From the NCBI GenBank assembly GCA_913009765.1, contig CAJVYT010000217.1:1-7218 (forward strand): a DNA stretch of 7,218 bases. The letters run 5' to 3'. The DNA is from an uncultured candidate division Zixibacteria bacterium. Its GTDB lineage: Bacteria > Zixibacteria > MSB-5A5 > GN15 > FEB-12. Numbering within the stretch: position 1 is the first letter of the stretch; every line of letters begins with the position of its first letter. This document shows positions 4,035 through 7,218 of this stretch, piece after piece. The notes under the pieces were generated by a model, which saw nothing but the letters and a program-made list of their open reading frames with translations, had not been told where the DNA came from and did not search any database. Both the position numbers and the translations under genes were made by a program.

Positions 4035-4349
4035 TTAATTTTTTGTTTTTCTCGATGAACCATTCTTTTTCATCTTGTCCTTATAGTCAATTGAAGGCGG
4101 TTTTAATTCCTCGCCTTTGATTTTACTTTTAATAAGGTCAACCATTCCTTTAAAATCTTTTGCAATTGAACCCGATGCCTTGCGGTTTTCTTCCTGAATC
4201 TTCACATAAATTTCTTCACGATGTACAACCACATTCATCGGAGCATCAATTCCGATTCTTACTTGTCTTCCATGAATCCCTAACACCGATATTTTAATAT
4301 CTTCACCGATGTTAATTGATTCACCTAACTTCCTTGTTAAAATCAGCAC
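4035..4349 (-). CDS. csrA: CsrA, translational regulator with long basic C-terminal extension
   Basis: CsrA is a small dimeric RNA-binding protein that binds GGA motifs and usually blocks ribosome access; in FliW-containing bacteria its main target is flagellin mRNA. The core is intact: [15 protein letters not shown] (1-15) with L4 and R6, [16 protein letters not shown] (22-37), and VHREEIY (42-48) with the RNA-contacting R44. The protein is 104 residues, against about 60-75 in most CsrA. Residues from about 58 on form a lysine-rich tail with a likely helix ([17 protein letters not shown]) and a disordered end (NGSSRKTKN). In known systems the region just after the core contacts FliW. The start is GTG, supported by a strong AAGGAGG site 6 bases upstream and by alignment with the CsrA N-terminus. 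It lies between flgK (59 bases upstream) and flgL (19 bases downstream). Confidence 0.97.
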
Positions 4350-5800: not shown

Positions 5801-6288
5801 CAGATTCTCCTATCTATTGCTACAGTGTTGTTTTGCTCATACGATTCACCTGATTGTCCATAAGTTGGTGATTTTGGTGCATGTATGCGAGCAAGCATAT
5901 CCATCGTTTTGGAGATATATTCTCTCGAACGGTTCAGCAGTATCGCATTTTGATTTCTTGTTTCTGAAATCTTATCGTTAAGTTCAAGAATCACATTTTG
6001 GAGTTGTTCTAATCTGTCTGCCTGCTGTCGGTCAATTAATGTGAGTAAACGGGTGATATTTAAATCGCCGTCTATATTTTTATCTTTTTTAATTTGCTCA
6101 ACAAGTTCCATCCTTTGGCAGTTAAGCATTTGACTTTCGGCAAGCCTTTCATGCTGCTCGGCGGTAACTTCGTTAAGCCCGTCAAGGTTATTTTCTACCA
6201 GCATTCTTTGTTGTTTTTCAAGGAGTTCTAAGAAAGATTCAAAGAGAGCGGCTTCCTTGCCAATAATTTCTATTAATACATCAATCAT
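5800..6288 (-). CDS. flgN: FlgN-like export chaperone for FlgK and FlgL
   Basis: FlgN is a cytoplasmic chaperone that binds the C-termini of FlgK and FlgL and delivers them to the export gate. The 162-residue product is almost wholly helical and charged, with the FlgN-like opening MIDVLIEIIGKEAALFESFL and LLEKQQRMLVENNLDGLNEV, then a long coiled-coil segment rich in Q, E and R through about residue 135. Only the last 25 residues are non-helical. Sequence conservation in this family is low, so the call rests on the N-terminal pattern, size and position directly before flgK. I chose ATG 6288, which has a GGA seven bases upstream and begins where FlgN proteins usually begin. An in-frame TTG at 6300 would add four residues (the frame then reads MDKKM). 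The gene follows the transglycosylase by 47 bases and overlaps flgK by one base. Confidence 0.87.
   Translation of the reverse strand: MIDVLIEIIGKEAALFESFLELLEKQQRMLVENNLDGLNEVTAEQHERLAESQMLNCQRMELVEQIKKDKNIDGDLNITRLLTLIDRQQADRLEQLQNVILELNDKISETRNQNAILLNRSREYISKTMDMLARIHAPKSPTYGQSGESYEQNNTVAIDRRI
5801..5816 (-). promoter_or_regulatory. Hairpin with Shine-Dalgarno in loop upstream of flgK
   Basis: The transcript reads UAGAU, loop AGGAGA, AUCUG: four Watson-Crick pairs plus a closing U-G pair. The flgK Shine-Dalgarno is in the loop and the stem abuts the AUG. The structure lies inside the last codons and stop of flgN, so ribosomes finishing flgN would open it, which is compatible with translational coupling. 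GGA in a loop also makes it a candidate CsrA site; this is inference. Confidence 0.35.
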
Positions 6289-6335
6289 TTTTTTATCCAA
6301 TAATTTTTATCTTCACATTAATAGTCGGTTTATTT

Positions 6336-7016
6336 TCATTTCACTTTAGCACGTATCACATTAGTATTTACATTTATAGTCGATAATGAGTCCATTACTT
6401 TGTCCACATATCCCTCTGTTTCGGGAAATGGGGGTATCCCATCGTACCGCATCACATTACCCGGTCCGGCATTATAGGCTGCCAGAGCGAGTTTTACCGA
6501 TTTAAAGCGGTCGAGCATGCTTTTAAGATAGCGGCTGCCACCGTCAATATTTTCTTCGGGATCAAAGACATCTTTCACATCAAGTTCTGCGGCAGTAGAG
6601 TCAATTAATTGCATTAACCCTTTGGCACCTGACGGTGATACTGCTTGAGGATTCCCATTCGACTCCGCTTTTATAATTGAAATAATCAAAGCCGGATCTA
6701 AAGAATATTTATCAGCAGCTTTTTGAATTTGTTTACCGTACTTTGAAAGAATAGGGTCTTGAGCAATTTTTCCTTGTGTTCTGAGTGGCTGCGTTACTTT
6801 GATAAAACCGCCATCACGTCTGTCAATCTCTAACTGCTCTTGTGGGCGATCTATACCTTTAAATTTATTCTGCTTTATTTCAATAGGTGCATGGGTTTCT
6901 TGTTTTAGTGATTTTATTTGAACCGTATCTGTTTTTGCTTTATAAGGTGCTTCTATTATTTTTTCCAATGAACGATATAAAACAGCAGAAATAGATTTGT
7001 CAGAATCTGTTGTCAT
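6336..7016 (-). CDS. SLT-type lytic transglycosylase of the flagellar operon, 5' end uncertain
   Basis: This enzyme cleaves the MurNAc-GlcNAc bond of peptidoglycan with formation of the 1,6-anhydro product; beside flagellar genes the likely job is opening the wall for the rod. The GH23 SLT domain spans about residues 90-205: IISIIKAESNGNPQAVSPSG (111-130) with catalytic E118, GLMQL (133-137), NIDGGSRYL (156-164) and AYNAGPGNV (180-188). The first 85 residues are polar with no recognisable domain, no signal peptide and no FlgJ rod-binding domain. Enterobacterial FlgJ uses a different (GH73) muramidase, so I give no flgJ symbol. ATG 7016 is only the first visible start: just seven genomic bases precede it before adapter sequence, no ribosome site is seen, and no in-frame stop separates them. 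The real protein may be longer, with a rod-binding or signal segment. A general cell-wall lytic enzyme is the alternative. Confidence 0.88.
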   Translation of the reverse strand: MTTDSDKSISAVLYRSLEKIIEAPYKAKTDTVQIKSLKQETHAPIEIKQNKFKGIDRPQEQLEIDRRDGGFIKVTQPLRTQGKIAQDPILSKYGKQIQKAADKYSLDPALIISIIKAESNGNPQAVSPSGAKGLMQLIDSTAAELDVKDVFDPEENIDGGSRYLKSMLDRFKSVKLALAAYNAGPGNVMRYDGIPPFPETEGYVDKVMDSLSTINVNTNVIRAKVK

Positions 7017-7023
7017 CTGTTTT

Positions 7024-7081
7024 AGATCGGAAGAGCGTCGTGTAGGGAAAGAGTGTAGATCTCGGTGGTCGCCGTATCATT
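7024..7081. other. Illumina TruSeq universal adapter (assembly contamination)
   Basis: The 58 bases from AGATCGGAAGAGCGTCGTGT to GCCGTATCATT are the complete reverse complement of the TruSeq universal (P5) adapter, matching from memory at every base. This is library DNA and not part of the genome. It marks the end of a sequenced insert, so genomic sequence stops at about 7023. Confidence 0.98.
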
Positions 7082-7218
7082 AAAAAAAAAACAAACAGAA
7101 ATAAGAGAAGTGTAATTATTTTTCTATTCGTATTTATGCTTACACACCACGAGGCACCACTATGAATCAACTGTCAGACACGAGCAGCCAATGAGCCACA
7201 GCTGATCGTCAATCTATC
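7082..7218. other. Post-adapter tail: A10 run and sequence of unknown, probably spurious, origin
   Basis: Directly after the adapter come ten A's (7082-7091), then about 127 bases with no open frame, no match I recognise and a composition that shifts from AT-rich to more mixed. Poly-A followed by meaningless calls is typical of a read that has run past the end of its library molecule. A chimeric join to other DNA cannot be excluded. No gene should be called here, and it should not be used as an upstream region for the transglycosylase. Confidence 0.85.

Follow-up and report, generated by a model that had tools for sequence, protein, structure and literature searches.

Contamination of contig ends by sequencing adapters was described by Moeller et al. 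(2024, PMC11536531). According to the abstract and Results of that report, adapter enrichment at p<0.01 was found in 1,110 of 15,657 MGnify reference assemblies, with about 157 expected by chance, and the adapters were concentrated at contig ends. The contig end analyzed here is similar in that a TruSeq adapter, including its read-specific part, lies near the contig end and points outward. It differs in that the whole 58-nt adapter is kept and is followed by A10 and a 127-base tail, whereas the abstract and Results of that report speak of adapter pieces, with no spacer or tail.

The gene that runs into this end resembles the FlgJ-type proteins, in which a rod-binding domain is combined with a C-terminal peptidoglycan hydrolase. 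A longer relative from ENA (P0002) has PF10135 followed by PF01464, and flgI and flgN flank the gene in three related loci (L115, L116, and L117). In contrast to the FlgJ-type protein, the window (the whole stretch of DNA analyzed, 7,218 bases) retains only the SLT part, because genomic DNA stops inside the gene. The features considered below are as follows.

6336 to 7023, minus strand: flgJ-like gene, cut short so that only its SLT lytic transglycosylase part is left (PF01464; identity with P0002; PF10135 in P0002)
7014 to 7016, minus strand: apparent ATG start, corresponding to internal Met91 (alignment with P0002 and relatives)
7024 to 7081, minus strand: TruSeq Universal (P5) adapter, 58 nt (exact string match; alignments of three syntenic relatives end before it)
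7082 to 7091, minus strand: probable T10 spacer from the P5 primer on the flow-cell surface, A10 on the plus strand (exact match of T10 plus adapter; A-runs in IMG/VR)
7092 to 7218, no strand assigned: tail of 127 bases, most likely post-template base calls (no significant matches; composition unlike the window)

The adapter was checked by exact string comparison in the 7,218-base window. Positions 7024 to 7081, in reverse complement, match the Illumina TruSeq Universal (P5) adapter of 58 nt at 58 of 58 bases, with 0 mismatches. The original prediction of a full universal adapter in reverse complement was thereby borne out. The match extends to 68 bases when T10 is added, since positions 7024 to 7091 are the exact reverse complement of T10 plus the adapter. 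By our own estimate, an exact 58-mer would occur by chance in 7,218 bases on both strands with a probability of about 2e-31 at equal base frequencies. No 14-mer from six tested adapter or primer strings was detected in the rest of the window, and Rfam gave no match at gathering scores. The adapter points outward: positions 7024 to 7218 form the end of the window, and the contig of the window protein (P0001) is given as 7,218 bases in the protein database.

The i5 index between the two adapter halves is absent, as in single-index TruSeq libraries. Among the 20 phage records listed as matches, six (H1, H2, H3, H5, H6, and H10) showed 76-84% identity over 62-66 bases and carried 11-15 additional bases relative to the window adapter; these additional bases probably correspond to an index. 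We found no evidence against the adapter identity itself.

To locate the end of the genomic DNA, 27 loci from the genome collection were compared with window positions 6001 to 7218, and four of these (L115, L116, L117, and L120) were compared with the whole window. Three Candidatus Zixiibacteriota MAGs (L115, L116, and L117) were syntenic with the window, with 74-77% DNA identity over 5.4-7.1 kb. Their blastn alignments ended at window positions 7023, 7023, and 7022, respectively. This comparison of related genomes at the upstream end of the transglycosylase gene had been put forward with the original prediction, and homology stops at 7022/7023. In the more distant L118, L119, L120, L121, and L123, the alignments ended at 6688, 6638, 6722, 6698, and 6484. 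Among the 27 loci, no alignment beyond chance extended past 7023.

On the minus strand at the junction, the window reads TCT-AAAACAGATG, whereas L116 reads GGC-AAAACAGATG. Directly ahead of the Met codon the window has AAAACAG, and L116 reads GC-AAAACAG-ATG. At the C of an Ala codon (GCA) in L115 and L116, the window has the adapter T. Thus, the switch from genome to adapter falls between 7023 and 7024, and by this comparison with L116, 7024 is the earliest base that must be non-genomic. Judged from these alignments, genomic DNA ends at 7023.

The window contains a flagellar locus on the minus strand: a flgJ-like transglycosylase gene, flgN, flgK, csrA, flgL, fliW, and a TPR/glycosyltransferase gene. 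The flgL protein was named by its match to Flagellin_N and its position. In L115, L116, and L117, a FlgI gene (PF02119, 409-410 bits) lies upstream and ends at the start of the flgJ-like gene. The csrA gene (window 4035-4349) is situated between flgK and flgL, with fliW beyond flgL, and this order is kept in L115, L116, L117, and L120. By gene content and homology, the contig up to 7023 is Zixiibacteriota-like flagellar DNA.

The window protein possesses an SLT domain (Pfam PF01464, 107.7 bits). PF10135 was not found by Pfam in its 226 residues, as truncation predicts. P0002 has 316 residues, is identical to the window open reading frame at 226 of 226 residues, and carries 90 further N-terminal residues; its rod-binding domain PF10135 is at residues 53-105 (40.2 bits). 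The first 90 residues of P0002 end with AKQ, whereas the window has HSFPTRRSSDL-KQ in that place. In the frame of the gene, the window gives LHSFPTRRSSDLKQ ahead of the ATG. HSFPTRRSSDL has been reported as the translated TruSeq adaptor (in a passage of PMC7949039), and the KQ ahead of the window ATG is a pair of genuine protein residues. Thus, the ATG at 7014-7016 is Met91, since P0002 extends 90 residues further, KQ is genuine, and HSFPTRRSSDL is adaptor. The caution that starts read from this contig end would be false therefore applies to the apparent transglycosylase ATG itself.

In an alignment of 12 proteins, the full extension was present in ten (P0002 and P0004-P0012); P0003 had a shorter one, its contig being as long as that of L117, in which the gene is frameshifted, and P0001 is the window protein itself. 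Both PF10135 and PF01464 are recorded in most of the 120 relatives among the matches listed, several of which bear Zixibacteria names. Six of the other 119 homologues listed (P0027, P0039, P0058, P0060, P0097, and P0116) have fewer than 250 residues and are listed without PF10135. Given these six, an SLT-only protein might exist. For P0039, however, L120 has a longer open frame in which the protein begins in phase near residue 74, which suggests that its start was called too late. In L117, the flgJ-like gene is frameshifted at about 8115-8185: the start frame meets stops, and a tblastn search with P0002 gives two pieces. Either a misassembly or a genuine change could account for this frameshift. 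As far as homology can tell, the window gene is that of a FlgJ-like rod-binding/SLT protein whose rod-binding N-terminal part was lost where genomic DNA ends.

A real genomic insertion of 195 bases that resembles an adapter by coincidence is vanishingly improbable and is already contradicted by the data, and we found nothing in its favour. The exact 58-mer followed by A10 speaks against it, as does P0002, which is identical over the common 226 residues and continuous at the junction. L115 and L116 are likewise continuous; L117 is continuous at the junction, with its frameshift further upstream. Adapter read-through that was assembled into the contig is almost certainly the correct explanation.

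The A-run following the adapter is exactly ten bases long (7082-7091). On Illumina flow cells, the surface primers have a spacer of ten T; a read that traverses the adapter as far as the template end would then be expected to give A10 and nothing more. In a part of PMC11123353, a 10-T stretch is described as added 5′ to primers with P5/P7 letters on a solid surface, and the sequences removed in one study (a passage of PMC9958793) include part of an adapter whose end is followed by A6. We looked beyond the adapter in IMG/VR contigs. At the P5 end, 48 of the 117 copies continue for 12 bases or more beyond the adapter, and 43 of these 48 have an A-run of at least ten; in 65 of the remaining 69 copies, only A or nothing followed. 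At the P7 end (at least 120 loci), the A-run of at least ten was found in 41 of 56 copies with at least 12 bases beyond, and all 66 copies with fewer than 12 bases showed only A or nothing. In L045 and in one of the two copies in L031, A10 passes straight into G only. G is the dark call of two-colour machines, and G alone is expected where no template is present. The length of the A-run in public contigs is not fixed at ten and varies from 10 to 18; shorter runs were seen in 5 of 48 P5 copies and 15 of 56 P7 copies, 20 in all. Thus, the A-run is not read exactly. These results are best read as showing that A10 is a copy of the T10 spacer of the flow-cell primer and not junk. The A10 run had been predicted correctly after the adapter, and its assignment to a junk tail has to be revised: it is an ordered part of the artefact, probably a T10 copy.

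The 25-nt adapter end was detected in 117 copies in 114 IMG/VR loci, and an adapter copy was followed by A10 in 71 of the 114 stretches. Most copies (107 of 117) lie within 250 bases of the sequence end; the count is 105 of 117 without L008 and L087, in which that end is not the contig's own. Among 50,697 phage records, 50 matched part of 7024-7218 at E up to 1, as did 3 among 72,556 plasmid records; the weakest of these matches may be chance. In the phylum to which the relatives belong, matches at E 0.001 were present at seven places in 6 of 132 genomes. One of these contig ends (L145) has the adapter without its first 5 bases, A11, and a 25-base A-rich tail. In L146, L150, and L151, adapter pieces extend to the contig end, and L147 and L148 carry imperfect adapter copies near the contig end. 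The 26-base match with one mismatch in L149 may be chance.

Eight viral contigs (L011, L015, L016, L019, L027, L028, L051, and L069) continue for 1.2-14.6 kb beyond the adapter end and A-run, which suggests joins through the A homopolymer. Since the adapter is far from the contig end in L011, L015, and L016, the bases beyond A10 are not always noise. By analogy with the thousands of bases in these three contigs, the window could be an adapter-bridged chimera, in which 7024-7091 is adapter plus spacer and 7092-7218 is real DNA joined via the A10 homopolymer. We consider this unlikely on the evidence from the tail. In blastn searches at E up to 10, the tail had no match in 20,395 E. coli records. 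In phages, 43 records matched, the best 20 of the 43 at E 0.4 or worse; in plasmids, 92 records matched, the best 20 of the 92 at E 1 or worse. Both are chance levels, and the phage and plasmid matches listed span 20-33% of the tail. The best match in the 27 related loci had an E value of 0.035 over 21 bases, which is also at chance level. Stop codons occur in all six frames of the tail. Its start is A-rich (14 of 25 bases are A), and GC reaches 50% in the final 80 bases, a value attained by 1.6% of the window's own 80-mers. All these points argue against real DNA beyond A10. With the matches listed from the E. coli, phage, plasmid, and 27-locus searches nil or dismissed as chance, a genomic origin of the tail is unlikely as far as these collections go.

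Composition was also scored with Markov models trained on the window itself. At orders 2, 3, and 4, a score as low as that of the tail was found in 5, 3, and 19 of 115 body stretches, and a score as low as that of the last 80 bases in 0, 0, and 6 of 116 stretches. These scores set the tail apart from the window in a way that is suggestive and not proof. Positions 7092 to 7218 are probably base calls made without a template. The presence of 127 noise bases in a contig counts against this reading, as it is unexpected unless very few reads suffice for extension. The claim that about 195 bases are non-genomic stands in its length (7024-7218 is 195 bases) and in its boundary, with homology ending at 7022/7023; for the last 127 bases, it holds to the extent that the tail was made without a template.

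The tail was compared with 23 other contig-end tails from IMG/VR. An A-rich start was present in several of them and absent in others (e.g. L004 and L022). None of the 9-mers of the window tail was present in any of the 23 tails, and the full adapter plus A10 plus C occurred exactly in no IMG/VR contig. The alignment of L145 with the window shows agreement at 9 of the first 12 bases beyond A10, but both stretches are A-rich. We tentatively raise the possibility, which we regard as doubtful, that post-template calls are reproducible enough to survive assembly and leave phantom ends of at least 100 bases behind the adapter and A10 in public contigs. It is part of the same doubtful proposal that such ends often start A-rich.

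From these results, we propose the following course of events. A fragment in the library, from a Zixiibacteriota-like bacterium, would stop at 7023, within flgJ, and the insert would be shorter than the read. The read would continue across the ligated adapter, TruSeq Universal (7024-7081), and then across what is probably the copied T10 spacer of the P5 primer on the flow cell (7082-7091). On leaving the template end, it would produce meaningless calls (7092-7218). The assembler, presumably given untrimmed reads, would have lengthened the contig with them.

Our analysis confirms that the feature is an ordinary assembly artefact of a kind already described. Its significance is in quality control only: positions 7024-7218 should be clipped. 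A promoter or start is not inferable at the 7218 end of the window, and the transglycosylase gene should be flagged as 5′-partial. The adapter end plus A10 makes a simple screen, which also flags the spurious tail that a mask of adapter letters would miss. If phantom ends do exist, they might be taken for a promoter, a novel element, or orphan sequence, and one pattern could screen for them.
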